From: Dactylosporangium sp. AC04546
GTDB taxonomy: Bacteria > Actinomycetota > Actinomycetes > Mycobacteriales > Micromonosporaceae
Assembly: GCF_022095675.1 (NCBI RefSeq)
Contig: NZ_JAHYSG010000019.1
Span: 75,018-139,017 of the forward strand
Direction: 5' to 3'
Length of the DNA stretch: 64,000 nucleotides
Shown here one piece after another: positions 12,452 through 27,430 of the stretch (its first letter is position 1; each line of letters opens with the position of its first letter). The position numbers and the translations under genes are program-made. The notes below the pieces were generated by a model. It ran no database searches, had not been told where the DNA came from, and was given only the letters and a program-made list of their open reading frames with translations.

Positions 12452-13225
12452 CTAGGCCGGCACGATGATCGGGGTGCCCGCCACCGGGTCGGGGATGACG
12501 ACGCAGCTCAGGCCGAAGACCTTCTCGATCAGCTCCGCCGTCACCACGTCCGCCGGGGCGCCCTCGGCCACGATGCTGCCGTCGGCCATCGCGATGATGT
12601 GGTCGCAGTACCGGCAGGCGAGGTTCAGGTCGTGCATCACGATCACGATCGTCTTGCCCGACCCGGCGTTGAGGTCGCGGAGCAGGCGCAGCAGCTCGAC
12701 CTGGTGGTTGATGTCGAGGTACGTCGTCGGCTCGTCGAGCAGCAGCAGGTCGGTGTCCTGGGCCAGCGCCATCGCCACCCAGACCCGCTGGCGCTGGCCG
12801 CCGGACAGCTGCCGCAGCGGGCGGTCGATGAGCTCGGCCGTGCCGGTCGCGTCCAGCGCCCGGGCGACCGCGTCGTCGTCGGCGTCGGTCCAGCGGCGGA
12901 ACCAGCCCTGGTGCGGGTACCGCCCCCGCGACACCAGGTCGGCCACGGTGATGCCGTCGGGCGCCACCGGGGTCTGGGGCAGCAGCCCGAGCACCTTCGC
13001 GACCTCGAGTGTGCTCAGCGACGCCATCTGCCGGCCGTCGAGGTACACCGTGCCCTGACGCGGCCGCAGCAGCCGGGCGAGCCCGCGCAGGAGCGTGGAC
13101 TTGCCGCAGGCGTTGGCCCCCACGATGGCGGTGACCTTGCCCTCCAGCACGGTGACGTCGAGGTCCGCGACGACGGTGCGGTCGTCGTAGCCGAGGGTCA
13201 GTCCTTCGGCGCTCAGCCGGGTCAT
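12452..13225 (-). CDS. Iron-siderophore ABC importer ATPase (FepC/FecE type)
   Basis: Energises uptake of Fe(III)-siderophore. Walker A GANACGKST, Q-loop LLPQTPVAPDGI, signature LSGGQRQRVWVAMAL, Walker B LLLDEPTTYLD and switch His in VMHDLN are all present; the LDINHQ and Y-C-D-H segments are typical of FepC/FhuC. The ATG overlaps the stop of the second permease (ATGA). 257 aa, last gene of the four-gene minus-strand operon controlled by the iron box at 16338. Confidence 0.93.
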   Translation of the reverse strand: MTRLSAEGLTLGYDDRTVVADLDVTVLEGKVTAIVGANACGKSTLLRGLARLLRPRQGTVYLDGRQMASLSTLEVAKVLGLLPQTPVAPDGITVADLVSRGRYPHQGWFRRWTDADDDAVARALDATGTAELIDRPLRQLSGGQRQRVWVAMALAQDTDLLLLDEPTTYLDINHQVELLRLLRDLNAGSGKTIVIVMHDLNLACRYCDHIIAMADGSIVAEGAPADVVTAELIEKVFGLSCVVIPDPVAGTPIIVPA

Positions 13226-14265
13226 CCGCCTGCTCCCTGTCGGTTCGTGGTGGCCAGCAGCCACAGGAGGTACGGCGCGCCGACCGCGCCGGTGACCACG
13301 CCGGTCGGTAGTGCGGTCGGCAGCAGGTGCACGGCGACGAGGTCGGCGCCGAGCAGCAGGGCCGCGCCGGCCAGGGCGGCCGGGACGATGCCGCCGGTGG
13401 CCGGGCCCAGCAGCCGGTTCGCGATCGGGCCGGCGACGAGCGCGACGAAGATGATCGGCCCGGCCACCGCGACCGCCAGCGCGATCAGCGCCACGGCCGT
13501 GGCGAGCAGGCCCGCCCGGTTGAGCTCGGTCCGCGAGCCGAGTGCGCGGGCCGAGTCGTCGCCGAGCTCCAGGGCCCGCAGCCCGCGCTGCAGCACGACC
13601 GCCAGCGGCAGCAGCACCAGCAGCGCGATGCTCAGCAGGCGCAGCTCCGGGCCGGAGGCCTGGCCCACCGAGCCGGTCAGCCAGTGGATCGCCTGCCGGG
13701 CCTCGAACAGCTGCGCGCGGGTCAGCACGTAGCCGGTGAGCCCGTCGAAGAAGACGGCCACGCCGATGCCGATGAGGATGAAGCGGTACCCCGTGACGCC
13801 GTCGCGCCAGGCGAGCACGTACATGAGCGTGGCCGCGACGATCGCCCCGCCGAGCGCGAACCCGGTGATCGCCAGCCCGCCGGCCTGGAGTACCACGATG
13901 CCCGTGACGGCCGCGAGACCGGCGCCGGAGGTGATGCCGACGAAGTCGGGCGAGGCGAGCGGGTTGCGCAGCAGCTGCTGGAAGATGGTGCCGGAGGCGC
14001 CGAGGGCGAGCCCGACGGTCAGGCCGGACACCGCGGTCGGCAGCCGCAGCTCGCGGACGACGAAGTCGACGCCCGGGTTGTCGGCCAGGTGCAGCACCGA
14101 CGTGATGACCTCACCGGCGGTGAGCCGGAAGCTGCCGACCATCATGGTGACGACGAAGAGCGCGATCACGGCGGCGGCGAGCCCGCCGGTCACGACCGCG
14201 AACCGGGTGCCGCGGCGCCGCCGGTTCGACCGCAGCGCGCGGACGGTCTCGAGTGTGGCGGTCAT
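13222..14265 (-). CDS. FecCD-family siderophore permease, second subunit
   Basis: One half of the membrane channel of the iron-siderophore importer: 347 aa, about nine to ten membrane helices and the FecCD signature regions LALGASGTIFQQLLRNPLAS and GPIIFVALVAGPIANRLLGP. Its ATG begins 5 bp after the stop of the first permease. Two different FecCD subunits in a row form a heterodimeric channel, as in FepD/FepG. Confidence 0.93.
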   Translation of the reverse strand: MTATLETVRALRSNRRRRGTRFAVVTGGLAAAVIALFVVTMMVGSFRLTAGEVITSVLHLADNPGVDFVVRELRLPTAVSGLTVGLALGASGTIFQQLLRNPLASPDFVGITSGAGLAAVTGIVVLQAGGLAITGFALGGAIVAATLMYVLAWRDGVTGYRFILIGIGVAVFFDGLTGYVLTRAQLFEARQAIHWLTGSVGQASGPELRLLSIALLVLLPLAVVLQRGLRALELGDDSARALGSRTELNRAGLLATAVALIALAVAVAGPIIFVALVAGPIANRLLGPATGGIVPAALAGAALLLGADLVAVHLLPTALPTGVVTGAVGAPYLLWLLATTNRQGAGG

Positions 14266-14269
14266 CGGC

Positions 14270-15298
14270 TCACACCTCCGACAGCTTGCCGTAGCGGACG
14301 ACCGCGACGAAGGCGGGCGCCCCGAGCACCCCGAGCACCACGCCGACCTGGAGCTCGTCGGGCGCGGCGACCACGCGGCCGACCACGTCGCACAGCAGCA
14401 GCACGATCGGCGCGAGGAGCATGGAGTACGGCAGGATCCACCGGTAGTCGGGGCCGCAGATGAAGCGGGCGAGGTGCGGCACGACAAGGCCCACGAAGAC
14501 GATCGGCCCGCAGGCGGCGGTGGCCGCCCCGGCGAGGATCGCCACGACGACGAACGCGGCCGCGCGGGTGCGGCCGACCCGCTGGCCGAGCCCGCGGGCG
14601 ACATCCTCGCCGAGCGCGAGCCCGTTGAGGGCGCGGCCGAAGCCGAGCGACGCGAGCAGCGCGACGACGAGGAACGGGGCGACGCCGGTGAGCACCGGCG
14701 CGTACCGGCCGGCGAGCGAGCCGACCTGCCAGAACCGCAGCTCGTTGAGCGCGTTGATGTTGGTCATCACGATGCCGGTGGTGACCGAGGTCAGCCCGGC
14801 GGTGACGGCGGCGCCCGCGAGCGCCAGCTTGACCGGCGTGGCCCCCTCACGGCCCAGCGACGCGATCGCGTAGACGAGCACCGTCGCCAGGATGGCGCCG
14901 GTGAACGCGAACCAGATCGACACGCCGACGCCGTGCACGCCGAGGACGGTGACGGCGAACACGACCAGGACGGCCGCGCCGGCGTTGATGCCCATGATGC
15001 CCGTGTCGGCGAGCGGGTTGCGCGTGACGCCCTGCAGGATGGCGCCCGCGACGCCGAGGGCGGCGCCGACCAGGATGCCGAGCAGGGTGCGCGGGACGCG
15101 CAGCTCCAGCGTGACGGTGCTGTTGATGGAGCCGTCGTCGTCCATGCCGGTCAGGGCGTGCATGACCTCGGACAGGCTGATGTCGCGGGAGCCCTGGGTG
15201 ACGCTGAGGAACGCGACGACGGCGAGCACGGCACACAGCACGGCGAGGCCCGGCCCGAGGGTCGCGCCTCGCCGCACCGATTGGGCGGTCCGGTTCAT
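14270..15298 (-). CDS. FecCD-family siderophore permease, first subunit
   Basis: 342 aa with repeated hydrophobic segments and the FecCD motifs GAALGVAGAILQGVTRNPLA and CGPIVFVGLVVPHLARFICG. ATG 15298 overlaps the stop of the binding-protein gene (TGATG arrangement). Partner of the following permease and of the ATPase at 12452. Confidence 0.93.
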   Translation of the reverse strand: MNRTAQSVRRGATLGPGLAVLCAVLAVVAFLSVTQGSRDISLSEVMHALTGMDDDGSINSTVTLELRVPRTLLGILVGAALGVAGAILQGVTRNPLADTGIMGINAGAAVLVVFAVTVLGVHGVGVSIWFAFTGAILATVLVYAIASLGREGATPVKLALAGAAVTAGLTSVTTGIVMTNINALNELRFWQVGSLAGRYAPVLTGVAPFLVVALLASLGFGRALNGLALGEDVARGLGQRVGRTRAAAFVVVAILAGAATAACGPIVFVGLVVPHLARFICGPDYRWILPYSMLLAPIVLLLCDVVGRVVAAPDELQVGVVLGVLGAPAFVAVVRYGKLSEV

Positions 15299-16302
15299 CA
15301 GTTCCCGATGTTGGGGTCGGCGCTCTTCACGGCCTCGGTGAGCTTGTCCAGCTCGGTCGCGAAGTGGCCGTAGGTGTGCAGCCAGTACGCCGGCCAGGCG
15401 ACGACCGCGCCGGCCTTGGCCGCCTTGATCTTGAACCAGGTGGGCTGCTTCTGGCCCCACTCGGCGTTGGCCGAGGCGGTGTAGGAGCGGCCGTCCCACA
15501 GGATCAGGTCGGGCTGGTACTTGTCGGCGTTCTCCCAGCTGAGGTTCTCCCAGTACGGGAACGCGGGGTCCGGGCTGTCCGGGTTGATCACTTTGAGGCC
15601 CCAGCGCTGGAAGTCGAGCAGCTCCGGCGCGTACTCCGGGTTGGCGAAGTACACCTTGTCGTCGGCCGGCGACATCGCGCCGACGGTGAGGCCGGGCTTG
15701 GCCGCGACGGCCTCCTTGAACTTGGCGAGGGACTGTTCGAAGCGCTGCTTGTTGGCCGCGATCTTCGGGTCGTCGACCTTGGCGCCGAGGCTCTCGGCGA
15801 GGTCCTCGTAACCCTCGGCGAGCTCGAGGATCGACTTGCCCTGGCTGATGCCGACGATCGGGGCCAGGTCCTTGAGCTTCTTGCTCTTCTCGTCGACGCC
15901 CTCCTCGAGGCCGCTGTTGGCCTTCTCGGCCGGCCACCAGTCGGCGACGATGAGGTCGGGCCGCAGCGAGGCGGCCTTCTCGACGTCGATCTTGCCCCAC
16001 TCCTCACCGAGGATCTCGATGCCGCTGAGGTCGAGGTCCTTGAGGTTGGAGTCGGTCTTGACCGACTCGTCGGCGTAGATGCCGACCGGCTTGATCCCGA
16101 AGGACATCAGGGCGGCCGCCTCGCCGGCGTGGGCGATGATCCGGGTGGGGACCTTGTCGGCGGTGACGACCTTGCCCGACCCGTCGGTGAACTTCCAGGG
16201 GCCGGACGCGCTCGGGCCGGACGAGGGCGAATCCTCGGAACCACATCCGGCGAGGACGGCACTGAGGGCCGCAACGGCGACGATCGAACGCCAGGCACGC
16301 AT
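15298..16302 (-). CDS. Iron-siderophore-binding lipoprotein
   Basis: First gene of the operon. An exported lipoprotein: signal peptide with lipobox LAGC (Cys near residue 20), then a class III binding-protein fold (FepB/FhuD type) with strand VPTRIIAHAGEAAALMSFG, KAASLRPDLIVADWW and the long linker helix around residue 150. Length 334 aa. It would deliver Fe(III)-siderophore to the FecCD permeases. An IdeR-type iron box lies 36 bp upstream of the start, so expression is probably iron-repressed. No siderophore synthesis genes are in the window. Confidence 0.92.
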   Translation of the reverse strand: MRAWRSIVAVAALSAVLAGCGSEDSPSSGPSASGPWKFTDGSGKVVTADKVPTRIIAHAGEAAALMSFGIKPVGIYADESVKTDSNLKDLDLSGIEILGEEWGKIDVEKAASLRPDLIVADWWPAEKANSGLEEGVDEKSKKLKDLAPIVGISQGKSILELAEGYEDLAESLGAKVDDPKIAANKQRFEQSLAKFKEAVAAKPGLTVGAMSPADDKVYFANPEYAPELLDFQRWGLKVINPDSPDPAFPYWENLSWENADKYQPDLILWDGRSYTASANAEWGQKQPTWFKIKAAKAGAVVAWPAYWLHTYGHFATELDKLTEAVKSADPNIGN

Positions 16303-16356: not shown

Positions 16357-16545
16357 CACCTCCCCGGTTGGTCAACATTCGAGACCAAACGGTGACCTGA
16401 CGGGCGGTACAGTGCGGATGGCTGTCCGGGCAGCCTCCGGTCCGCGGAAATGGGCACAGCCCACCCAGTGCGTGACGAACCTGAGGCCTCACCCTCCTTT
16501 CGGCCTGACCCAGCGGACAGCAGGCGCGAACGAGAGGAGGCCCCT

Positions 16546-18018
16546 GTGCCTGACTTCCGGAGAGCCGCCCGAGCCCTGCAGCGCGCGGTGCGCGCCGGCG
16601 ATCCCGACGCGATCGCCCGGGTCGCCACCCGCCACCCCGCCGGCGCGCCGGCCGACCCGGCCGGGTTCGCGCTCACGGCCGCGCAGCTCGTCGTGGCCCG
16701 CGAGCAGGGCTTCGCGAGCTGGCCGCGGCTGCGGCGATACCTCGACACGGTCGCCTCGCACGGCTGGGACAGCCGGACCGCGGCGTCGCCCGCCGCCCAT
16801 CCCGCGGACGAGTTCTGCCGGCTGGCCTGCCTGACGTACACCCGCGACGACGGTCCCGACCGCTGGAGCGCCGCCGGCGGCATGGTGACCGCCGAGCACA
16901 TCTGGGCGGCGTCGGCCGCCGGCCGTCCGGACGACGTCTGGCGGCTGCTCGCCCGCGACCCCGGCCTGGCGGGGGCACGCGGCGGGCCGTTCGGGTGGCG
17001 GCCGCTGCTGTACCTCACGTACTCGCGCGTCGACCCGGCCCCGGCCGAGGCGGACGCGCTCGCCGTCGCCCGGCAGCTCCTCGCCGCCGGCGCCGACCCG
17101 AACGAGGGCCACCTCTTCGACGGGCTGACGTACCCGTTCACCGCCCTGACCGGCGTGCTCGGCAACGGCGAGCTGGGCGCGGCGCGCCAGCCCCGGCACC
17201 CGTACTGGCACTCGCTGGCCGGCCTGCTGCTGCGCGCGGGCGCCGACCCGAACGACGCGCAGGGCCTCTACAACACCATGTTCCTGCCCACGACCGACCA
17301 CCTGGAGCTGCTCTTCGCCCACGGCCTGGGCACGGCTGGCCGCGGCCCCTGGCGCTCCCGGGTCGGCGAGGCGATCCCCCCGCCGGACGAGCTGCTGCGC
17401 ACCCAGCTCCGCTGGGCGGTCGAGCACGACCAGCACGCGAAGGTGCGCCTCCTAGCCTCGCACGGCGTCGACGTCCGGTCGCCGTTCACGGCCGCCGGCC
17501 CGGCCTGGGCACCCGGCGACGGCCGGACCCCGCTCGAGCTGGCCCGGCTGTACGGCCACACGGAGATCGCGGAGCTCCTGGTCGAGCACGGCGCGCCCGC
17601 TCCACCACCGGACCCGGTCCAGAACCTGATCGCGGCCGCCTTCCGCGCGGACCGCCCGGCGGTGCAGGCGCTGCGCGCCGAGCACCCGGACGTCGTCACC
17701 CGCGCCCACGCGGCCCGCCCGGGCCTGGTCGTCTGGGCCGCGGCCCACTCGTCGGTATCCACTGTGGACCTCCTGGTCGAGCTGGGCTTCGACGTCAACG
17801 CCCTGGGCCGCGCGGACGCCCCGGTCGAGGAGCCTTGGGAGACGGCCCTGCACCACGCCGCGGGCGCGGGCGACGTCTCGCTGACCCGCCACCTGCTGGC
17901 GCTGGGCGCCGACCCGCAGGCCCGCGACCGCCGCTTCGCCGCCACGCCGCTGGACTGGGCCCGCCACCTGGGCCGCCCCGCGACCGCCGCCGTCCTGGAG
18001 GAGGCAACGCAGCGGTGA
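16546..18018 (+). CDS. Ankyrin-repeat protein, 490 aa
   Basis: A soluble scaffold protein built from ankyrin repeats: LLLRAGADPNDAQGLYNT, RTPLELARLYGHTEIAELLV, LLALGADPQARDRRFAATPL and others, with the GADPN turn recurring. An N-terminal 90-residue helical part (FRRAARALQRAVRAGDPDAI) precedes them. GTG 16546 follows a GAGGAGG ribosome site and fits better than upstream codons in the same open frame. There is no catalytic domain and no signal peptide. Ankyrin proteins bind other proteins; no partner is evident. Confidence 0.85.
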   Translation: MPDFRRAARALQRAVRAGDPDAIARVATRHPAGAPADPAGFALTAAQLVVAREQGFASWPRLRRYLDTVASHGWDSRTAASPAAHPADEFCRLACLTYTRDDGPDRWSAAGGMVTAEHIWAASAAGRPDDVWRLLARDPGLAGARGGPFGWRPLLYLTYSRVDPAPAEADALAVARQLLAAGADPNEGHLFDGLTYPFTALTGVLGNGELGAARQPRHPYWHSLAGLLLRAGADPNDAQGLYNTMFLPTTDHLELLFAHGLGTAGRGPWRSRVGEAIPPPDELLRTQLRWAVEHDQHAKVRLLASHGVDVRSPFTAAGPAWAPGDGRTPLELARLYGHTEIAELLVEHGAPAPPPDPVQNLIAAAFRADRPAVQALRAEHPDVVTRAHAARPGLVVWAAAHSSVSTVDLLVELGFDVNALGRADAPVEEPWETALHHAAGAGDVSLTRHLLALGADPQARDRRFAATPLDWARHLGRPATAAVLEEATQR

Positions 18019-18412: not shown

Positions 18413-18523
18413 GCTCCCACCCTGGGACCCCGGACTGTCGGCAGGCGGTCACTGTCCACATTGGGTATTGCCCGGCGATCTCCCGGTGTGCTACCCGTAT
18501 GGCACACAAATCGGGGGATGGAA

Positions 18524-20029
18524 ATGGATCTTGGTGAGCTCACACCGGAGCTGACCGGCACAGCCGTGTGGTCCGACGGCATGGTGGCCGCGGCCGGCAT
18601 TCCGGTGCACGACGTGCCGTTCGTGACCGTCGGCGGCGGGATCGGCTCGTTCGTGACCGTCGACTACCTGCGGATCGCGGGCGTGCCGCCCGAACAGATC
18701 CGGGTCTTGTCCAACATCGACCATCCGTGGCAGACGTACCAGTACCTCACCCGGGTCTCGCAGATCCCCGAGCCGGAGCGGATCCGCTCGGACTCGTCGT
18801 CGCGGCCCGACAACATCTGGGGCTTCCCGTCCTACGCGCTGGCCGAGGCCTGGCGGGACCGCACCCTGCGGCCGCTGGTGCACGTGCTCGGCGAGCCGGT
18901 CTTCGCCGACTACTGGACCCCGCGGGCCGGTGACGTCTTCGCCGGGCTGCGGCGGGAGTCCGAGCGGATCGGGTACGACGCGATGGTCGCCAAGGGCGTC
19001 GTGCGCATGGTGCGCAAGCGCGACCAGGGCGGGTACTTCACGGTGCTCACCCCGCCGGACGGCGCCACGAAGCGGGTCGCCTACCGGTCACGGTTCGTGC
19101 ACCTCGCCGTCGGCTACCCGGGGCTCAGGTTCCTCCCCGACCTCCAGAAGTTCCGCGAGGAGCACGGCGACTTCGAGCACGTGGTGAACGCCTACGAGCC
19201 GCACGAGCACGTCTACGAGTTCCTCAAGACGCGGCCGGGCACGGTGCTGGTGCGCGGCGGCGGGATCGTCGCCTCCCGGGTACTGCAGCGGCTCATGGAC
19301 GACCGCGCGAAACACGGGCTGCAGACGCAGATCGAGCACCTGTTCCGCACGTACGTCACCGGCGCGCACGGCCCGCACTGGTGGGCCCGGCGCAAGGGCG
19401 GCGACGGCTTCGCCTACCAGGGCTTCAACTACCCGAAGTCGGTGTGGGGCGGGCAGCTCAAGGCCCGCATGCGCCGCCTGGAGGGCGAGGAGCGGGCCGC
19501 CGCCTACAAGGGCATGGGCGGCACCAACACGCCGAAGCGCCGGCGCTGGCAGCGGCAGATGCGGGAGGGCCGGACCGCCGGCTGGTACCGCGCAGCGCAG
19601 GGCACCGTCGAGAAGGTCTGGCCCGACACCGACGGCACGCTGGTCAGCGTCGTCGCCGGCGAGCAGGGCTTCCGGGAGATCCGGGCCGACTACATCATCG
19701 ACTGCACCGGCCTGGAGGCCGACATCGCCGAGCACCGCGTGCTCGCCGACCTCCTGGCGCACGGCGGCGCCGGGCGCAACCCGCTGGGCCGGCTCGACGT
19801 CGAGCGGCACTTCGAGGTGCGCGGCACCGCCAGCGGCGACGGCGCGCTCTACGCCTCCGGCACGACCACGCTCGGCGGCTACTTCCCCGGTGTCGACACG
19901 TTCCTGGGCCTGCAGATCGCCGCCCAGGAGATCGCCGACGACCTCGCCCGGCGCGGCTGGTGCCCGCGCCTCGGGCCGATCCGCTCCACGGTGCAGTGGT
20001 GGCGCTGGGCGCTCGGCCGCTCGATCTGA
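18524..20029 (+). CDS. FAD/NAD(P)-binding oxidoreductase-like protein, 501 aa
   Basis: First gene of the kinase/antiporter operon. An N-terminal Rossmann-type dinucleotide fold is suggested by VPFVTVGGGIGSFVTVDYLR (near residue 30) and a second one by GTVLVRGGGIVASRVLQRL (near residue 240); a C-terminal IDCTGLEAD motif is like the ATG-type motif of flavoproteins. This matches two-dinucleotide-binding flavoprotein reductases in outline, but the close family is not recognised and the substrate is unknown. ATG 18524 gives better ribosome-site spacing (GGGGGA at 18513-18518) than in-frame ATG 18518. No signal peptide. It is followed after 16 bp by the membrane protein. Confidence 0.75.
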   Translation: MDLGELTPELTGTAVWSDGMVAAAGIPVHDVPFVTVGGGIGSFVTVDYLRIAGVPPEQIRVLSNIDHPWQTYQYLTRVSQIPEPERIRSDSSSRPDNIWGFPSYALAEAWRDRTLRPLVHVLGEPVFADYWTPRAGDVFAGLRRESERIGYDAMVAKGVVRMVRKRDQGGYFTVLTPPDGATKRVAYRSRFVHLAVGYPGLRFLPDLQKFREEHGDFEHVVNAYEPHEHVYEFLKTRPGTVLVRGGGIVASRVLQRLMDDRAKHGLQTQIEHLFRTYVTGAHGPHWWARRKGGDGFAYQGFNYPKSVWGGQLKARMRRLEGEERAAAYKGMGGTNTPKRRRWQRQMREGRTAGWYRAAQGTVEKVWPDTDGTLVSVVAGEQGFREIRADYIIDCTGLEADIAEHRVLADLLAHGGAGRNPLGRLDVERHFEVRGTASGDGALYASGTTTLGGYFPGVDTFLGLQIAAQEIADDLARRGWCPRLGPIRSTVQWWRWALGRSI

Positions 20030-20045
20030 GACGGAGAACTCAACA

Positions 20046-20483
20046 ATGGTGCCCATCCTGTCGGGTCGCCTCCAGACCCGCATCTTCCTGCTCGCCGTCG
20101 TCGGCTCGGCCGTCACGGCGCTCATCGTCCCCCTGCTGCCGGGCGGCGGGCCGCTGTCCGAGCGGTACCGCACGGCGTTCCTCGTGCTCGCCGCCGTCGC
20201 CGTGCTCGGCATCGGCTGGGAGCTGCTCTACCACTTCCTCATGCAGTTCCGCTGGGAGAAGGACTGGCCGTCGCTGTTCGGCCTGCTGACCGGCGTGCCG
20301 GAGGCCGTGGTGCTGTGGCTGCTGCTGCGCGCCGGCGCTGTGCCGGGGGTCGCCGCCGTGCCGCCGCTGACGGCGTTCGTCATCCAGTTCGCGGCGGTGT
20401 GGCTCGCCGTCTGGCTGGTCGCCAACGGTCCGATGCGGGTGCCGTTCCTGCGGTGGCGGTTCCGGGGCGGGCGGTTGACGTGA
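20046..20483 (+). CDS. Four-helix membrane protein of the kinase/antiporter operon
   Basis: 145 residues with four predicted membrane helices (about 12-30, 43-63, 76-96, 105-125) and a basic C-terminal tail (RVPFLRWRFRGGR). A charged FRWEKDW segment lies between helices 2 and 3. No family is recognised. The gene follows the oxidoreductase with a GGAG ribosome site and its stop overlaps the start of the FHA gene, so it is very probably co-expressed; it might anchor the oxidoreductase or FHA protein at the membrane (inference). Confidence 0.7.
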   Translation: MVPILSGRLQTRIFLLAVVGSAVTALIVPLLPGGGPLSERYRTAFLVLAAVAVLGIGWELLYHFLMQFRWEKDWPSLFGLLTGVPEAVVLWLLLRAGAVPGVAAVPPLTAFVIQFAAVWLAVWLVANGPMRVPFLRWRFRGGRLT

Positions 20484-21496
20484 CGGATCCGACGGTACTG
20501 CCGATGCCCGGTGCCGGACTGGTCACCCGGGCAGGCGCCCTGCTCGCGGTCGCCGAGCCGGCCGGCGCCGAGGAGCTGCTGACCCTCGTGCGGCGGATCG
20601 CGGCCGACGGCGGCGACGGGCCCGACCTGGTCCGCCGGGTCGCCGAGCTGTTCCCAGCCGGCGAGCTCAGCTGCGCGGTGGCCGGCCCGACCGCCGACGG
20701 CGACCTCGCGGTCCTCGTCTGCGGTCACGCCACCGCGGAGGTCGACGGCCGCCACGAGCAGGTCCGCCTCACCGGCCCGGGTCCCGCCACGCGCGTGGTC
20801 GCCGGACCCGTCGCGGCGGTACGGCTGACGCTGCCCGGGGCCGGCGCGCCCCATCCGCTCGCCCGGCTCGACGGCGGGGTCGTCGGCGGCGCCGGGCTGA
20901 GCGCGCGCTTCCACACCGAACCGGCGCCGCCGCCGAAGGAGCCGGCCCCTCCGTTCGAGGCGGTGCTGCTCGTGCCGGGCTACGCGCCGCCGCTGGCGCC
21001 GGTCGAGCCGGTCGCCGACACGGAGGTGCTCGTCGAGGGGGTCGACTGCAAGAACGGCCACTTCAACGACCCGGCCCTGCGGTACTGCCAACGCTGCGGC
21101 ATCGCCATGCACCAGCTGACGCTCGTGAGCCGGCTCGGGCCCCGCCCGCCGCTCGGCGTGCTGCTGCTCGACAACGGCATGACGCTGCGGGCCGACGCCG
21201 ACTACGTCGTCGGCCGGGACCCGGCCCGCGACCCCGACGTGGCCGCCGGCCGGGCCCGCCCGCTGCGCATCGCCGACTCCTACGGCGGCATCTCCCGCCG
21301 GCACCTGCGCGTCAAGCTGTCCGGCTGGACCGTGCGCGTCGTCGACCTCGGCTCGGCCAACGGCACCTACGTCCAGGGCCCCGGTGCCGACGAGGCGCCG
21401 CGCGTCCCGGCCGGCGGGGCCGTCGAGGTCCGGCCCGGCGCAAAGATCATCTTCGGCCGCCGGTGGCTGCGCTACGAGTCGCACCGCAATCCGTGA
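20480..21496 (+). CDS. FHA-domain protein with Cys-rich central segment
   Basis: A phospho-threonine-binding adaptor. The C-terminal FHA domain (about residues 230-335) shows the family landmarks GRDP, ISRRHLRVKLSGW and LGSANGTYVQG. Before it is a zinc-ribbon-like stretch (DCKNGHFNDPALRYCQRCG, near residue 190). The first 140 residues form a domain often seen in actinobacterial FHA proteins, perhaps a degenerate PP2C-like fold, without metal ligands I can identify. GTG 20480 overlaps the previous stop by 4 bp, and its own stop overlaps the kinase start. It probably reads the phosphorylation made by the neighbouring kinase(s). Confidence 0.88.
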   Translation: MTDPTVLPMPGAGLVTRAGALLAVAEPAGAEELLTLVRRIAADGGDGPDLVRRVAELFPAGELSCAVAGPTADGDLAVLVCGHATAEVDGRHEQVRLTGPGPATRVVAGPVAAVRLTLPGAGAPHPLARLDGGVVGGAGLSARFHTEPAPPPKEPAPPFEAVLLVPGYAPPLAPVEPVADTEVLVEGVDCKNGHFNDPALRYCQRCGIAMHQLTLVSRLGPRPPLGVLLLDNGMTLRADADYVVGRDPARDPDVAAGRARPLRIADSYGGISRRHLRVKLSGWTVRVVDLGSANGTYVQGPGADEAPRVPAGGAVEVRPGAKIIFGRRWLRYESHRNP

Positions 21497-22308
21497 GCGA
21501 AAGAGGTCAGTCCGCCGTGCAGGGAATCGCCGACTACGAGTTCATCCGGCCGCTGGGCGCCGGCAACCACGGCCAGTTCTACCTCGCCCGCCGCCCGGCC
21601 CGGCTGCCGGTCGACGTGGAGCTCGTCGCCGTCAAGGTGCTGTCCGCCGAGTCGAGCGACGCCGCGTTCCGCCGGGCCGTGCGGGAGCTGACCGCGTTCA
21701 GCGCGGTGGCGTCGCCGTACCTCGTCAGCCCGTTCGACGCCGGCCAGCAGGACGGCACGTTCTACTACTCGATGGAGTACCTGCCGGACGGCTCGCTCGC
21801 GAACCCGGCCGCGCCGCTCTCCCCCGCCGCCGCGCTGCGGGCCGTGGCCGACGCCGCCCGCGCGGTCGCCGACCTGCACGCCGCCGGCATCGTCCACCGC
21901 GACGTCAAGCCGGGCAACGTGCTGCTGCACCCGGGCGGCGGGAAGTTGTCCGACCTCGGCCTGGCCCAGGTCTTCACCGAGGGCGTGACGATCACCGGCA
22001 TGGGCCCGCTCGACACGGTCGAGTACGTCGACCCGGCGGTGCTCATGGGCGGCCGGCCGGTGCCCGCCGCCGACGTGTGGTCGCTCGGCGTGCTGCTGCA
22101 CCGGGTGGCCGGCGGCAGCAGCGTGTACGGCGACCTGCCGGACGGCGACGGCCTGCTCGCGCTGCGCCGGGTCCTCGCGGCCACGCCACAGGTCAGCGGC
22201 GCGCTACCCGAACCGGTGGCCGGCATCGTCCGCGCCTGCCTCGGCCCGGCCGGCGAACGGCCGTCCGCCGCGGCGGTCGCCGCGCTGCTGTCTGAGACCG
22301 CTCGATGA
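21493..22308 (+). CDS. Soluble Ser/Thr protein kinase
   Basis: A compact Hanks-type kinase of 271 aa that consists of the catalytic domain only. Visible landmarks: glycine loop LGAGNHGQF, Lys48 in VAVKVL, catalytic HRDVKPGNV (Asp137, Asn142), and the metal-binding motif as SDLGLA, i.e. DLG instead of DFG. The usual APE sequence is replaced by EYVDPAVL. There is no transmembrane or sensor domain. GTGA overlap with the FHA gene, ATGA overlap with the antiporter. A second possible start, GTG 21517, is in frame. Likely substrates are the operon's own proteins (inference). Confidence 0.9.
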   Translation: MSERGQSAVQGIADYEFIRPLGAGNHGQFYLARRPARLPVDVELVAVKVLSAESSDAAFRRAVRELTAFSAVASPYLVSPFDAGQQDGTFYYSMEYLPDGSLANPAAPLSPAAALRAVADAARAVADLHAAGIVHRDVKPGNVLLHPGGGKLSDLGLAQVFTEGVTITGMGPLDTVEYVDPAVLMGGRPVPAADVWSLGVLLHRVAGGSSVYGDLPDGDGLLALRRVLAATPQVSGALPEPVAGIVRACLGPAGERPSAAAVAALLSETAR

Positions 22309-24245
22309 GCGCGCACGCCGTCGGGCAGCTGATGCTCGGCCTCGCCAGCATCATCGTGCTGGCCCGGGTGCTCGGCCTGGCCGCCCGCAAGCTCGGCCAG
22401 CCGCCGGTCATCGGCGAGATCCTGGCCGGCATCCTGATGGGCCCCACGCTGTTCGGCGCCGCGGTCAGCGGCTGGCTGTTCCCCACCGAGGTGCGCACGG
22501 CCCTGGCCGGCCTGGCCAACGTCGGTCTGGTGCTGTTCATGTTCATCGTCGGCTACGAGGTGGACCTGGCCGCCGTGCGCGGCCGGCGCCGGGCCGCGGT
22601 GTCGGTCTCGGTCGGCTCCGTCGTGCTGCCGCTCGGCCTGGGCACCGGGCTCGCCTTCTGGCTGGCCGGCCACCACGACGTCACCGACGTGGCGCCGTTC
22701 GCGCTGTTCATGGGCGCGGCGATGTCCGTGACCGCGTTCCCGGTGCTGGCCCGCATCCTCGCCGACCGGGGCATGCTGCGCACCGAGGTCGGCGGGCTCG
22801 CGCTGGCCAGCGGCGCCGTCGACGACGTCGTCGCGTGGACCCTGCTCGCGGGCGTCGTCGCACTCGGCGCCGGCGGTGGGGAGGTGCCCTGGCAGGTGCT
22901 GCTCGCCCTGCCGTACGTGCTGGTGATGTTCCTGGTCGTCCGCCCGCTGCTGCGGCGGCTCGTCGCCGCCCGCGAGCGGGCCGGCCGGCTCACCCCCGAC
23001 ATCCTCGCCGTGATCCTCATCGGGCTGCTGCTGTCGTGCTGGTTCACCGAGGCCATCGGCGTCCACGCCATCTTCGGCGCATTCCTGTTCGGCGCCGTCA
23101 TGCCCCGGCTCGGCGGCGAGGCGCTGCGCCACGAGACCCTCGAACGGCTGGAGCAGCTCAGCGTCCTCGTCCTGCTCCCGGTGTTCTTCGTCATCGCCGG
23201 CCTGCGCGTCGACCTGTCCACAGTGGATGGCCGTGGGCTGATCGACCTCGCGCTCATCCTGGCCGTCGCGATCACCGGCAAGTTCCTCGGCGCCTACGCC
23301 GGCGCGCGGCTCAACCGGATCGACGCCCGCCGCTCCGGCGCCCTCGCGACGCTGATGAACACGCGGGGCCTGACCGAGATCGTGATCCTCACCGTCGGCC
23401 TGCAACTGGGCATCCTGCCCGCCGACCTGTTCTCGCTGATGGTGGTGATGGCGCTGGTCACCACGGCGATGGCCGGCCCGCTGCTCGCGGTCGTCTATCC
23501 GCGGCGGATGGTCGAGCAGGATGCCGCCGACCTGCGGAAGGCGGCGCTCGGTGTACCGGAGGCATACCGCGTCCTCGTCGTCGTCCCGCCCGGGGCGGCG
23601 GCGGCACCCGTCGTCGAGCTGGCCACCGACCTCGCCGTGCGGCGCGAGCCGGCCGAGGTGCTGCTGAGCCGCGTCGTGCCCTACGAGCAGTCGCGCATCG
23701 AGGTCGGCTCCGGCCTGTCCGGCGACCTGCTCGCGATGACCGCATCGATGGCCGAGCTGCACCGGCTGGCCGGGCCGGTCCGCGAGCGGGGGCCGGCGGC
23801 GCCGGTGTTCGCCCGGTTCAGCGCCGACCCGGCGGCCGAGGTCCGGGCCCAGATCGACGTCGCCCGCCCCGACACGGTCGTGCTCGGCGGCGACCACCCC
23901 GAGCTGGCCGGCGCCGGTCCCCGGCTGGTGACGGTGATCGCGCCGCCGCCGGCCGGCTGGGACACGGTCGTGGTCCGGGCCGGCGACGACGCCGACGGCG
24001 AGGCCGCGGTGCGGGTCGGCGCCGACCTGGCGGCCGCCCGCGACGCGGTCCTGGTGGTCGACGCCGGCCCGCGCCCGCCGCGCCGTATTGTCACGGTGCT
24101 CGACGAGCTCGGCTGGGCCGGCGCCGCCGGCCGGGCCGCTCCGCCGTCGGCGCTCGTCGTCGCCACCGGCCCGGCGGCGGGCGCGCATCTGCTCGTGCGG
24201 GCCCGGACCGAGGCACCGGCCGCGCCTGTACCGGCCCCGGCGTGA
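22305..24245 (+). CDS. CPA2-family cation/proton antiporter with USP-like C-terminus
   Basis: A 646-residue protein: about 12-13 membrane helices of the Na+/H+ exchanger (Kef/NapA-like) fold occupy residues 1-390, with PPVIGEILAGILMGP, the core-helix DD pair (SGAVDDVVAWT) and NTRGLTEIVILTVGLQLG. The remaining 250 residues are soluble and look like tandem universal-stress-protein folds (RVLVVVPPG, DTVVLGGDHPEL, DTVVVRAGDDADGEAAV) in place of the RCK/KTN domain of Kef proteins. It would exchange K+ or Na+ for H+ under control of the soluble domain. Translationally coupled to the kinase. Confidence 0.9.
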   Translation: MSAHAVGQLMLGLASIIVLARVLGLAARKLGQPPVIGEILAGILMGPTLFGAAVSGWLFPTEVRTALAGLANVGLVLFMFIVGYEVDLAAVRGRRRAAVSVSVGSVVLPLGLGTGLAFWLAGHHDVTDVAPFALFMGAAMSVTAFPVLARILADRGMLRTEVGGLALASGAVDDVVAWTLLAGVVALGAGGGEVPWQVLLALPYVLVMFLVVRPLLRRLVAARERAGRLTPDILAVILIGLLLSCWFTEAIGVHAIFGAFLFGAVMPRLGGEALRHETLERLEQLSVLVLLPVFFVIAGLRVDLSTVDGRGLIDLALILAVAITGKFLGAYAGARLNRIDARRSGALATLMNTRGLTEIVILTVGLQLGILPADLFSLMVVMALVTTAMAGPLLAVVYPRRMVEQDAADLRKAALGVPEAYRVLVVVPPGAAAAPVVELATDLAVRREPAEVLLSRVVPYEQSRIEVGSGLSGDLLAMTASMAELHRLAGPVRERGPAAPVFARFSADPAAEVRAQIDVARPDTVVLGGDHPELAGAGPRLVTVIAPPPAGWDTVVVRAGDDADGEAAVRVGADLAAARDAVLVVDAGPRPPRRIVTVLDELGWAGAAGRAAPPSALVVATGPAAGAHLLVRARTEAPAAPVPAPA

Positions 24246-24261
24246 CCTGGAAAGGACGACG

Positions 24262-26091
24262 ATGACCGGCAACCACGCGCCGTTGCGCGACGGGGATCCG
24301 CGGCGGCTCGGCCGGTACACCGTGGTCGGGCGCCTCGGCGAGGGCGGCATGGGCACCGTGTACCTCGCCACCGCCCCCGACGGCGTGCCGGTCGCCGTCA
24401 AGGTGGTGCGCACCGACCTGGCACACGACGAGCAGTTCCGCCGCCGGTTCCGCAGCGAGGTCAACCGGGCCCGGCAGGTGCCGCCGTTCTGCACCGCGGA
24501 GGTGCTCGACGCCGCCCCCGACGACGAGCGGCCCTACCTCGTCGTCGAGTACGTCGACGGGCCGAGCCTGGCCGCCGTGGTCCGCGACCGGGGGCCGCTG
24601 TCCCAGGCGAACCTGCACGGGCTGGCGATCGGCGTCGCGACCGCGCTCACCGCGATCCACGGCGCCGGCGTGGTCCACCGCGACCTGAAGCCCAACAACG
24701 TGCTGCTCGCCGCGGGCAGCCCGAAGGTCATCGACTTCGGCATCGCGCACTCGCCGCAGGCCACCACCGGGCACACCCGGACCGACCAGGTGGTCGGCAC
24801 GGTGGCCTACATGGCTCCGGAGCGGTTCGGGCCGGAGTCGAGCGGCAGCACCACGCCGGCCGCGGACATCTTCTCGTGGGGTGCGGTCATCGCGTACGCC
24901 GGCACCGGGCGCAACCCGTTCGGCTCCGACGCGGCGCCGGTGGTCGCGGCGCGGATCCTGACCCAGCCGCCGGACCTGTCCGGGCTGTCCGGGCCGCTGC
25001 GGGAGCTTGTGGCGCAGGCGCTCGCCAAGGATCCTGCCGAGCGGCCGACGGCTCGGGAGCTCGTCGATCGGCTCCTGACGGCCGGGCCCGCGCAGTCGGC
25101 GCTCGCGCGGCAGCCCGATCTGCTGGCGGCGGTCGAGGAGGTCCAGGCGACGGACGTGGCTCCGGCGCTGGACCCGGTTGCCGCGCCGGGCGTTGGTGCG
25201 GCTGGACTTTCGGCGGACGCGGGCGCCGCGGCTGGGCTCGCCCCCGATGCCACGACCCGGCTGGACGACTCGGCATTGCCGCACGTGCTGGCGGCCTCCG
25301 CTCCCGTGCCCGCTCCCATACCCGTCTCGGCCGCGACGGTCGCCGCGCCGCTTCCCCCGTCGTCGGGGCGGTTCGGGCGGATCACGCTCGCCGTCGTCGC
25401 GGTCGTCGCGCTGCTGACGTCGCTGGCGGTGGCGGGCCTGATGTACGGCATCATCCCCCTGCCGGATCGTGGCCCCCAGGCCCAGGCCTCCAGCGCGCCC
25501 GCCACGTCCGGCGCCGCGTCACCGTCGGGCGCCGCCGACCGGGTGCTGTTCACCGACCGGCTGACGAGCGAGCAGCTCTGGCAGCCCCGCGACGACAAGG
25601 AGAACGACGCGACCTGCGCGTTCCAGAACGCGCTCGTCGTCACCCGGCAGAGTGTCGGCTCGTACCGCTGCCCGGGCCCGCGCAACGAGGTGGCCGACTT
25701 CGCCATGACCGTCGACGTGCGGCTGCAGACCGCCGCCAGCTGCGCCGCGATCTGGTTCCGCTTCGACACCGGCGGCTACGTGCTGCGGGTCTGCGCCGAC
25801 GGCTACCACGTGGCCACCCACGGCGTCGGCGGCCCGGCGGCGGTCACGACGGTGGAGGACTATCCGTTCGCCGCCCCGCTCGCGGTCCAGGCGGTCGCGA
25901 AGGTCGGCATCGAGGCGCGGGGCGCCGACATGACCTTCACCCGCGACGGGCAGCCGCTGGGCACCTATCACGACCCGACGTTCGACCGCGGCCGGGTCGT
26001 CATCGGCATCTTCCCCGACCCGAAGACGACGGCCGCCCCGCCGTTCTCGGTGGCGTTCACGAACATCGAGGTCCGCGTCCCCTCGGCATGA
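24262..26091 (+). CDS. Membrane Ser/Thr protein kinase with extracellular sensor domain
   Basis: A 609-residue receptor-type kinase. Kinase domain residues 18-275: LGEGGMGTVYLA, Lys47 (VAVKVV), HRDLKPNNV with Asp141, VIDFGIA and GTVAYMAPERF, all intact. A Pro/Ala-rich linker leads to one membrane helix at about 374-397, then a 180-residue outside domain (430-609) with Cys residues and the texture of a concanavalin/LamG-like or DUF1080-like beta-sandwich (CAAIWFRFDTGGYVLRVCAD). ATG 24262 follows a GGAAAGG ribosome site, 16 bp after the antiporter. It may be the sensing kinase of the operon; no PP2C phosphatase is nearby. Confidence 0.92.
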   Translation: MTGNHAPLRDGDPRRLGRYTVVGRLGEGGMGTVYLATAPDGVPVAVKVVRTDLAHDEQFRRRFRSEVNRARQVPPFCTAEVLDAAPDDERPYLVVEYVDGPSLAAVVRDRGPLSQANLHGLAIGVATALTAIHGAGVVHRDLKPNNVLLAAGSPKVIDFGIAHSPQATTGHTRTDQVVGTVAYMAPERFGPESSGSTTPAADIFSWGAVIAYAGTGRNPFGSDAAPVVAARILTQPPDLSGLSGPLRELVAQALAKDPAERPTARELVDRLLTAGPAQSALARQPDLLAAVEEVQATDVAPALDPVAAPGVGAAGLSADAGAAAGLAPDATTRLDDSALPHVLAASAPVPAPIPVSAATVAAPLPPSSGRFGRITLAVVAVVALLTSLAVAGLMYGIIPLPDRGPQAQASSAPATSGAASPSGAADRVLFTDRLTSEQLWQPRDDKENDATCAFQNALVVTRQSVGSYRCPGPRNEVADFAMTVDVRLQTAASCAAIWFRFDTGGYVLRVCADGYHVATHGVGGPAAVTTVEDYPFAAPLAVQAVAKVGIEARGADMTFTRDGQPLGTYHDPTFDRGRVVIGIFPDPKTTAAPPFSVAFTNIEVRVPSA

Positions 26092-26111: not shown

Positions 26112-26618
26112 TCACGCGTGGGCCATGTGCTGGGCCTCGATCGCGGCGCGCAGCCGCTGCTCCGCGTCCATGTTCAGCGAGCTGTGCAGGAGCCGCCCGC
26201 CGAAGTTGTGCGGCGCCATCTCCGCCATCACCTTGTCGACCGTCACCTGGTCGACGAGCAGGAACATGGCCGCCGTCCCGGGCTCGAGCGACTGGGCGAG
26301 GTCCTTCATGAACTTGTCGTCGACCCCGACGTCCGTGGCCTTCCCGGCGAGCGCGCCGGCTCCCGCGCCGATCGCCATGCCGAGGAACGGGGCGAAGAAC
26401 AGCAACCCGATGAGTCCACCCCAGAGCGCCCCACCGGCCGCACCCATGCCCGCCATGGAGCTGGACTGGTGCAGCTTGATCTTGCCGTCGGTGCCGACGT
26501 CGACGACCGCGGCATCCCGCACCGAGATGAGGCCCTGCCGCTGCAGGTCCATAATCTTGTCCCGCGCCGCGTTGGCGGTGGACAGGTCGCGGTAGCCGAT
26601 CGCAACGAGCTCAGTCAT
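26112..26618 (-). CDS. DUF1269-family membrane protein
   Basis: 168 residues. An N-terminal ferredoxin-like part (ELVAIGYRDLSTANAARDKI) is followed by a Gly/Ala-rich hydrophobic segment (GAAGGALWGGLIGLLFFAPF and GMAIGAGAGALAGKATD) and a C-terminal soluble part (DKFMKDLAQSLEPGTAAMF). The arrangement is that of DUF1269 proteins, whose role is not established. A strong AGGGAAGG ribosome site precedes the ATG. Single gene, convergent with the kinase. Confidence 0.85.
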   Translation of the reverse strand: MTELVAIGYRDLSTANAARDKIMDLQRQGLISVRDAAVVDVGTDGKIKLHQSSSMAGMGAAGGALWGGLIGLLFFAPFLGMAIGAGAGALAGKATDVGVDDKFMKDLAQSLEPGTAAMFLLVDQVTVDKVMAEMAPHNFGGRLLHSSLNMDAEQRLRAAIEAQHMAHA

Positions 26619-26827
26619 GGATCCTTCCCTTTCTCCACACCGGCCGCGGCGGCCCGGTCGGACGCCGCACGAGGCAAGCGTCGCGGCGGATGCCCGAACC
26701 GAACCCACCCGAGCCGGGCTAGGTCCGTTCCGCCCACCCGGATGGGCGATCCCGCTTTGGGTGTTGTAGTTCGCCGAAGGGCTCCCCATCGGCCACCGCC
26801 ACGCCCTCTCCCAGATCACTATGAGCG

Positions 26828-27430
26828 TCACGGCTCCGTGGCACGCCGTGCGCGGAGCGCCCGGACCTTGTGGCGGTTGCCGCAGCGCTCCATCGCGCAC
26901 CAGCGGCGGGCGCCGGGGCGGGACGAGTCGACGAACACCAGCGGGCAGTTGTCGCCGGCGCACTCACGGATGCGTCCGGACAGCGGCCCGGACAGCAGCT
27001 CGACCATCTCCCGCGCCAGCGTCGAGAGCGCCTGCGTGGCCCGCACCGGCGGCGCCCATCTCGCGGTCGTGCCGCTGTCGGCGAGCTCGGGGACCAGCGA
27101 CGGCGCTGCCGCGGCGCGGTTGATGATCGCGATGGCGCCGGCGTCGAGGGGCTGCCCCGCCGCCCGGGCGTGCGCCGTTTCCCAGATCGCCTGGCGAAGT
27201 GCCTTCGCGGCGGCCAGCTCTTGGGCCGTCACGGGGATCGGTATGACGGCGGCCAGCGGCGGTGCGGCCAGCCAGTCGCCGAGGTCGCCGGGCTCGTGGA
27301 GGGTTTCGAACACCGCGTACTGACCCTCGCCGCCCGTGTGGGCGAAGTCCAGGCAGACGGCGCCGGCGTCGAACCAGAACGACCCTCCCTTGGGGTCGTG
27401 CAGCACCCGCCCGGTTGCGTAGGTCCGCAT
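26828..27430 (-). CDS. CGNR zinc-finger/ABATE-domain regulator
   Basis: 200 residues. The N-terminal ABATE domain (CLDFAHTGGEGQYAVFETL, LRQAIWETAHARAAG) precedes a C-terminal CGNR zinc finger with ligands in ECAGDNCPLVFVDSS and WCAMERCGNRHKV. Such proteins are presumed transcriptional regulators. The ATG at 27430 is used although the frame is open further upstream, because the promoter/operator region starts there. It is divergent from a RidA-family gene and two near-identical 14-bp sites lie between them. Confidence 0.88.
   Translation of the reverse strand: MRTYATGRVLHDPKGGSFWFDAGAVCLDFAHTGGEGQYAVFETLHEPGDLGDWLAAPPLAAVIPIPVTAQELAAAKALRQAIWETAHARAAGQPLDAGAIAIINRAAAAPSLVPELADSGTTARWAPPVRATQALSTLAREMVELLSGPLSGRIRECAGDNCPLVFVDSSRPGARRWCAMERCGNRHKVRALRARRATEP

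Follow-up and report, generated by a model that had tools for sequence, protein, structure and literature searches.

A conserved actinobacterial gene set joining a predicted flavoprotein, a small membrane protein and an FHA protein, usually with a Ser/Thr kinase and a CPA2 antiporter

A 64,000-nucleotide stretch of the genome of Dactylosporangium sp. AC04546 (contig NZ_JAHYSG010000019.1, positions 75,018 to 139,017; hereafter the window) carries a cluster of six genes that belongs to a gene set found in many other actinobacteria. The constant core of the set consists of a predicted flavoprotein oxidoreductase (OXR), a small membrane protein (TM4) and a protein with an FHA domain (FHA). A soluble Ser/Thr kinase (KIN1) and a cation antiporter (CPA2) form a second unit that is usually present, and a receptor-type kinase (RK2) is a local addition. 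The gene set itself is solid; it is a real, conserved and apparently undescribed possession of many soil actinobacteria. Its sequence features are consistent with a dedicated membrane redox-phosphosignalling module that controls an ion antiporter, a proposal to which we give slightly less than an even chance. The most parsimonious account, and one that we infer throughout, is that kinase, FHA protein and flavoprotein control the antiporter. The six genes are:

18524..20029, plus strand: OXR, 501 residues, predicted FAD/NAD(P)H flavoprotein (flavin adenine and nicotinamide dinucleotides); alternative ATG start at 18518
20046..20483, plus strand: TM4, 145-residue membrane protein with about four hydrophobic segments
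20480..21496, plus strand: FHA adaptor, 338 residues; GTG start at 20480
21493..22308, plus strand: KIN1, soluble Ser/Thr kinase, 271 residues; GTG start at 21493
22305..24245, plus strand: CPA2 antiporter, 646 residues; ATG start at 22305
24262..26091, plus strand: RK2, receptor-type Ser/Thr kinase; start at 24262

A first-pass annotation, made from the letters of the window, had reported six plus-strand genes at 18524-26091, and the cluster is confirmed with all six present. The 4-bp overlaps that it had ascribed to four of the genes are three in number and connect TM4 to FHA (GTGA, 20480-20483), FHA to KIN1 (GTGA, 21493-21496) and KIN1 to CPA2 (ATGA, 22305-22308); the OXR/TM4 and CPA2/RK2 junctions are 16-nt gaps. 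Starts of FHA, KIN1, CPA2 and RK2 were chosen by means of orthologues and overlaps, and G+C content at third codon positions is 0.95-0.97 across all six genes. At an E-value of 0.01, Pfam finds PF00498 in FHA, PF00069 in KIN1 and RK2, and PF00999 in CPA2, and no PP2C family in any of the six proteins, in keeping with the annotated lack of such a phosphatase. The gene spacing leads us to infer a single transcript. No sigma-70-type promoter was found at the cluster, and the sole terminator-like site lies on the minus strand, at the level expected from shuffled sequence. The host genome measures 13.0 Mb with a contamination estimate of 11.5%, and the cluster lies on its contig C19; the occurrence of all six genes, at 81-95% identity, in Dactylosporangium sucinum, the nearest named relative, is a strong argument against contamination or mis-assembly.

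Conservation of the set was assessed in a species-genome collection, where the best 80 of 300 OXR relatives were examined for their neighbours; these 80 loci are partly kin and hence not independent. TM4 stands beside OXR in 80 of 80, FHA is found in 77, KIN1 in 63, CPA2 in 61, and RK2, by a strict cut, in 8. The three loci without FHA end 2.1-3.0 kb past the OXR start. Core counts were taken from the 71 loci that extend 7.4 kb or more past that start, nine shorter ones being dropped: TM4 and FHA come after OXR in 71/71, CPA2 and KIN1 each in 59/71, and all five genes in 57/71. The FHA, kinase and antiporter genes, on whose joint conservation the first-pass annotation had staked its interpretation, are thus kept together in relatives. 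A further 17 loci from a sample of the Micromonosporaceae show the same pattern (TM4 17, FHA 17, CPA2 14, KIN1 12). Genera with the set include Dactylosporangium, Micromonospora, Actinoplanes, Streptosporangium, Planobispora and Thermomonospora, as well as Pseudonocardia, Nocardioides, Gordonia, Nocardia, Parafrankia and Actinomadura. OXR was found in 4 of 7 genomes of the genus and in 17 of 396 genomes of a phylum sample, the host's own and weak matches included. Of 200 family genomes 18 have OXR, and these are precisely the ones that have TM4.

The arrangement is beyond what chance would produce, since 59/71 loci have CPA2 only a few kb from OXR and the host genome has Na_H_Exchanger matches at just 10 places in 13 Mb (11 matches, of which two are parts of a single one). 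Across 57 loci the five proteins show correlated pairwise distances (r 0.85-0.95, uncorrected for the species tree). Order and orientation vary: CPA2 has the reverse orientation in the majority of loci from Streptosporangiaceae, Nocardioides and Pseudonocardia and stands upstream of OXR in L064, L067 and L068, and KIN1 is divergent, and upstream, in Nocardioides.

Could these genes be neighbours merely by descent, with no functional connection? The sampling comes largely from related genera and the statistics ignore kinship, but the set persists over many families despite inversions, reordering and the use of different CPA2 lineages, and the proximity of OXR, TM4 and FHA holds even at about 25% identity; we regard this explanation as scarcely credible. 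The latter evidence comes from a distant OXR family of 22-29% identity, a query from which retrieves the window OXR at E 6e-11. This form has 1068 database relatives, and a Thermoleophilia and a Solirubrobacteraceae name appear among the 120 listed. In the phylum sample it has strong matches in five genomes and a fragment in a sixth; its neighbours include a TM4-like gene, placed after OXR, in 5/5, FHA in 4/5 (the fifth contig ends there) and a kinase in 2/5, counts that are limited by the shortness of the contigs.

CPA2 and KIN1 form a pair in that a locus mostly has both or neither: among the 71 loci, 57 have both, 10 have neither, and one or the other occurs alone in 2 and 2 (Fisher p 9e-9, a value that ignores kinship). 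In Streptosporangium subroseum neither gene lies between FHA and the next gene, where relatives have both; the gene following FHA there is a member of cluster c13 that resembles TetR by eye, and the top CPA2 match of that genome (37%) does not include the tail. In Rhizohabitans, matches to KIN1 (60%) and CPA2 (49%) are adjacent to each other roughly 16 kb past OXR; the contig measures 1,491,478 bases in both searches. A separate remnant, L157 (G018:C124, 1933-5442), has a CPA2 match (77%) without the first 125 residues and RK2 near the contig start, in a genome, G018, where OXR and TM4 were not detected; it is either a decayed cluster or an assembly gap.

For OXR, the window copy matches no Pfam family over cut-off and no NCBIfam model, and its profile against PDB sequences gives a best E of 0.087. 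Its predicted structure has the double-Rossmann fold, for FAD and NAD(P)H, that is seen in N-hydroxylases and in bacillithiol-disulfide reductase (Bdr), with the highest Z in structure comparison, 25.9, against Bdr, and identity to solved N-hydroxylases of 10-16%. By this model OXR is a two-dinucleotide-fold flavoprotein, which bears out the initial call. Threonines T334 and T336 are conserved. TM4, annotated as a four-helix membrane protein and consistent with that description, likewise matches no Pfam family over cut-off, and among NCBIfam models only SLATT_1, far below cut-off. Its motifs are GR(I/L)QTR and WExxYHxxxQxRWExDWP, and T11, within GRIQTR, is Thr or Ser in 84/84. The database holds 2227 clusters of proteins homologous to OXR and 2052 homologous to TM4.

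The FHA protein consists of an N-terminal beta/alpha domain (about 1-143), a flexible linker, a zinc-ribbon-like motif, CxxxHxxxPxxxxCxxCG, at 190-207, and a C-terminal FHA domain (about 222-338). Over 45 sequences, the residues of the phosphothreonine site G245, R246, H275, N294 and G295 are invariant and S272 is kept in at least 90%. Judged from sequence, the Gly-Arg, Ser-x-x-His and Asn-Gly residues typical of phosphothreonine-binding FHA domains are intact, and the PF00498 match upholds the annotation of this gene, as do structure searches, whose listed matches are FHA folds. The N-terminal domain is predicted to form three strands, two helices, then further strands. We considered whether it might be a degenerate PP2C and rejected this: Pfam detects no PP2C in 45 orthologues, and a comparison by hhalign with PP2Cs from the same genome gives a probability of 2% (8 sequences, with L188 in the wrong frame and the strongest PP2C, L182, not included).

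Both kinases are as annotated. The PF00069 match of KIN1 agrees with a soluble kinase; the window copy retains VAVK, HRD and DLG, the motifs expected of an active Ser/Thr kinase, and T159 in its predicted activation loop is conserved. RK2 combines PF00069 with a transmembrane segment (about 367-401) that is followed by a C-terminal domain, as expected of a receptor kinase. Its eight strict-cut matches in the 80 loci are all from Micromonosporaceae, weaker ones such as that of L079 (45%) being uncounted, and we excluded it from the core on this count. We also rejected L181 (G000:C89), elsewhere in the host genome, as a second copy of the cluster; of the six proteins only RK2 matches there, at 29% and through the kinase domain. 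That locus, with FHA, PP2C and two-piece exchanger matches close together and with vWA and kinase genes by eye, looks like another cluster.

The antiporter has a NapA-like transport domain (about 1-400) and a USP-like tail (about 405-646). Its core aligns with NapA at E 6e-21, and in alignment to 4bwz D173-D174 and K326 match the DD motif and lysine of NapA; K326 is present in 53/53 antiporters. CPA2 thus appears, by its motif, to be of the NapA type. The annotated CPA2 antiporter with a USP-like tail stands for the PF00999 part, and orthologues lend the tail support, 8 of 12 matching PF00582 (Usp) at E up to 1 (best 3.3e-7); the window's own tail is weak, reaching E 0.11 against PF00582, below the Pfam cut-off. 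A profile of the tail gave no significant match to PDB sequences. All 20 sampled CPA2s unlinked to the set are without a tail.

The first-pass annotation had drawn an analogy with Kef, under which the system would effect K+ efflux with a kinase and oxidoreductase in place of glutathione/RCK control. We consider this improbable. KefF is a flavodoxin-like quinone reductase, and OXR, with its predicted two-dinucleotide fold, is probably of another kind. No RCK (TrkA_N) domain matches CPA2 at E 0.01, and RCK_C/TrkA_C matches none of the six proteins; the window antiporter has DD and a lysine as in NapA. According to the portions of PMC11150392 available, the ion-site motif is QD in KefC and DD in NapA, and a Q155D variant of KefC lost K+ binding. 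The likeness lies in the placement of a CPA2 antiporter beside an oxidoreductase gene, KefF being described in the same excerpts as an ancillary NADH-binding protein of Kef (PMC11150392). Kinship with Kef therefore finds no support, and the K+ analogy is weak.

In a tree of 90 CPA2 domains the 62 rows linked to the set cluster, with 6 changes against a shuffled mean of 24.3 (L157 is labelled linked-far there, although its genome yielded no OXR). The linked antiporters are not one clade: L042, the group of L063, L064, L067 and L068, and L150 stand apart from the main group. Repeated recruitment of CPA2 into the set is likely rather than proven, some of the rows being long branches.

Other transporters also occur beside the core. 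L069 and L070 have a TauE/SafE gene inside the operon, between TM4 and KIN1, and no CPA2 nearby. In four Frankiaceae loci (L146, L147, L148 and L151) FHA is followed by genes of DUF305 and SulP-STAS families (c48 and c49, assigned by scanning one member of each), and CPA2 and KIN1 were not detected. An MFS gene follows FHA in Actinomadura L155, a position that may be due to chance. This small sample points to a core that serves transporters generally, with TauE or SulP also possible outputs. On a broader construction, which we hold to be less likely than not, OXR-TM4-FHA would be a general-purpose membrane-anchored redox-phosphothreonine core of Actinomycetota with interchangeable transporters, mostly CPA2 of several lineages, TauE in two distant genomes and SulP-STAS in Frankiaceae; as far as our searches go it would be the first known case of a flavoprotein, an FHA protein and a Ser/Thr kinase jointly gating ion transport.

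The same observations bear on a different explanation, in which OXR-TM4-FHA, with or without KIN1, is a membrane-bound oxidoreductase or monooxygenase with a substrate of its own, restrained by phosphorylated FHA much as 2-oxoglutarate dehydrogenase is by OdhI/GarA; the antiporter would then handle a pH or ion load and not be the direct target. The core is constant (71/71) where CPA2 is not (59/71, and 5/11 in remote genomes), the fold of OXR is closest to N-hydroxylases and other NADPH flavoenzymes, OXR and TM4 contain conserved candidates for phosphorylation whereas the antiporter tail has none, and the transporters beside the core differ. The kinase, however, tracks the antiporter and not the core (57 loci with both, 10 with neither), the pair being kept away from OXR in Rhizohabitans, and metabolic genes occur in single lineages only, as judged from an unsystematic Pfam scan of 20 genes. 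We hold this explanation to be rather unlikely.

Under the preferred reading, that of an antiporter controlled by redox and phosphorylation signals, OXR would bind FAD and NAD(P)H and, with TM4 as its membrane anchor, would act either as an enzyme or as a sensor of redox state or NAD(P)H. KIN1, and here also RK2 in response to an outside signal, would phosphorylate threonines of the complex, the best-conserved candidates for phosphoacceptors being TM4 T11 and OXR T334/T336 and not the antiporter tail. The FHA/zinc-ribbon protein would bind phosphothreonine and couple OXR-TM4 to the antiporter; this coupling would switch the exchange of Na+ (or another cation) for H+ on or off, and redox state and kinase input would together set cytoplasmic pH and cation level.

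A number of observations weigh against such a module. CPA2 is not near OXR in 12/71 loci, and in nine of the 12 genomes no match reaches the CPA2 tail, from which it follows that the core can work without CPA2; the other three (L086, L095 and L124) have a tail-reaching match elsewhere in the genome, which in that of L095 stands beside another kinase (L205) and in that of L124 beside none of the set (L206). The 11 clear matches in the phylum sample, several on short contigs, have TM4 in 10, KIN1 in 8, FHA in 6 and CPA2 in 5, and the distant OXR form has CPA2 nearby in 1/5, again on short contigs. L063 has OXR, CPA2 and a kinase without TM4 or FHA, and L072 has OXR-TM4 followed by 6 kb without FHA, KIN1 or CPA2; both look like true exceptions and not effects of short contigs. 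OXR is patchy, at 18/200 family genomes. Bdr/YpdA has an active-site cysteine beside its FAD; no cysteine is invariant among OXR orthologues, C394 being kept in 76/81, and no redox site was found. The catalytic Asp of KIN1 is replaced in 9/63 rows, eight of them from Gordonia with HAN (L122, L137, L139, L140, L143, L144, L145 and L152) and one other locus with HRA, and catalysis may have been lost in the Gordonia lineage while the cluster was kept. The ion-site motif, counted in 53 antiporters of over 600 residues after nine shorter ones were dropped, is DD in 35, ID in 16, ND in 2 and QD in 0; all 16 ID antiporters come from Streptosporangiaceae, and in these variants the ion stoichiometry may be variable. 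Finally, no threonine of the CPA2 tail is conserved (T230, which is, lies outside it), and the phosphorylation of the tail that had been proposed at first thus finds no support from conservation. The original interpretation is, overall, partly supported.

The patchy distribution (18/200) would also suit a phage-defence or conflict system, as would the PADLOC kinase models that match both kinases, best PD-T4-6 for RK2 (E 9.9e-66) and Mad6 for KIN1 (E 3.7e-36). These kinase matches look generic, however, and OXR, TM4, FHA and CPA2 match nothing in PADLOC. No phage record matches OXR, and the sole match in a plasmid collection is to a Nonomuraea replicon of 11.85 Mb that is probably a chromosome and has no genes listed there. 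The neighbourhood of the cluster is, moreover, stable in Streptosporangiaceae, and we judge a defence role very unlikely.

If the preferred reading of a kinase- and redox-controlled antiporter is true, one operon would tie redox state to Ser/Thr kinase signalling and to the homeostasis of ions and pH, a small kinase and an FHA protein of actinobacteria would gain a target, and bacterial kinase-gated antiport would become testable with a handful of genes. OXR and TM4 have thousands of homologue clusters, yet the window copies have no Pfam family over cut-off.

The genes around these clusters are varied. In Nocardia amamiensis (L154, 14743-18887) a RuBisCO large chain, an AAA ATPase and a fructose-bisphosphatase lie beside OXR-TM4-FHA; the single neighbour scanned at a second Nocardia locus is a glycosyl hydrolase, and in L068 glutamate dehydrogenase comes next after FHA. 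In the window itself, the minus strand upstream (12452-16302) encodes an ABC ATPase (PF00005) and a periplasmic-binding protein (PF01497), perhaps a ferric-siderophore importer. A 522-residue ankyrin-repeat protein (plus strand, 16450-18018) ends about 500 bp upstream of OXR, and a DUF1269 protein (PF06897; minus strand, 26112-26963) lies directly downstream of RK2 on the opposite strand. Farther away, at 58352-62154 on the minus strand, genes for a TPR protein and a weak HATPase_c (GHKL) protein stand in tandem with a 4-bp overlap.

No description of such a gene set was found in the open-access full text of PMC, subscription papers and preprints being outside the scope of the search; this agrees with the initial claim of an undescribed system, and the nearest known systems each share a part of it. 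KefC-KefF, the glutathione-gated K+/H+ efflux system of E. coli, resembles it in pairing a CPA2 antiporter, which has its control domain in the cytosol, with a co-encoded ancillary oxidoreductase, but has RCK and QD where we find a USP-like tail and DD, and its oxidoreductase is probably of a different fold; TM4, FHA and the kinase are extra here. The K+/H+ antiporters KhtTU of Bacillus and CpeAB of Streptomyces, which respond to cyclic di-AMP (c-di-AMP), similarly place a regulator and an antiporter in one operon. Their control, according to the portions of PMC10117811 available, is by a c-di-AMP-binding RCK_C protein, whereas the six proteins here are without an RCK_C/TrkA_C match. The Na+/H+ antiporter NapA (PDB 4bwz) shares the transport domain, the DD motif and the lysine that follows; its solved chain has 394 residues, and the antiporter here is extended by some 240 residues of tail and stands among kinase, FHA and flavoprotein genes. 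OdhI/GarA and FhaA share the FHA fold, the phosphothreonine-site residues and an adjoining Ser/Thr kinase, whereas the FHA domain here is preceded by an N-terminal domain and by a zinc-ribbon-like motif, and its gene is linked to those for a membrane protein and a flavoprotein and, in most loci, to one for an antiporter. SidA, PvdA, DesB and Bdr, finally, share the double-Rossmann fold for FAD and NAD(P)H predicted for OXR, which differs from them in its identity of about 10-16%, its lack of a Pfam match and the presence of TM4 beside it.

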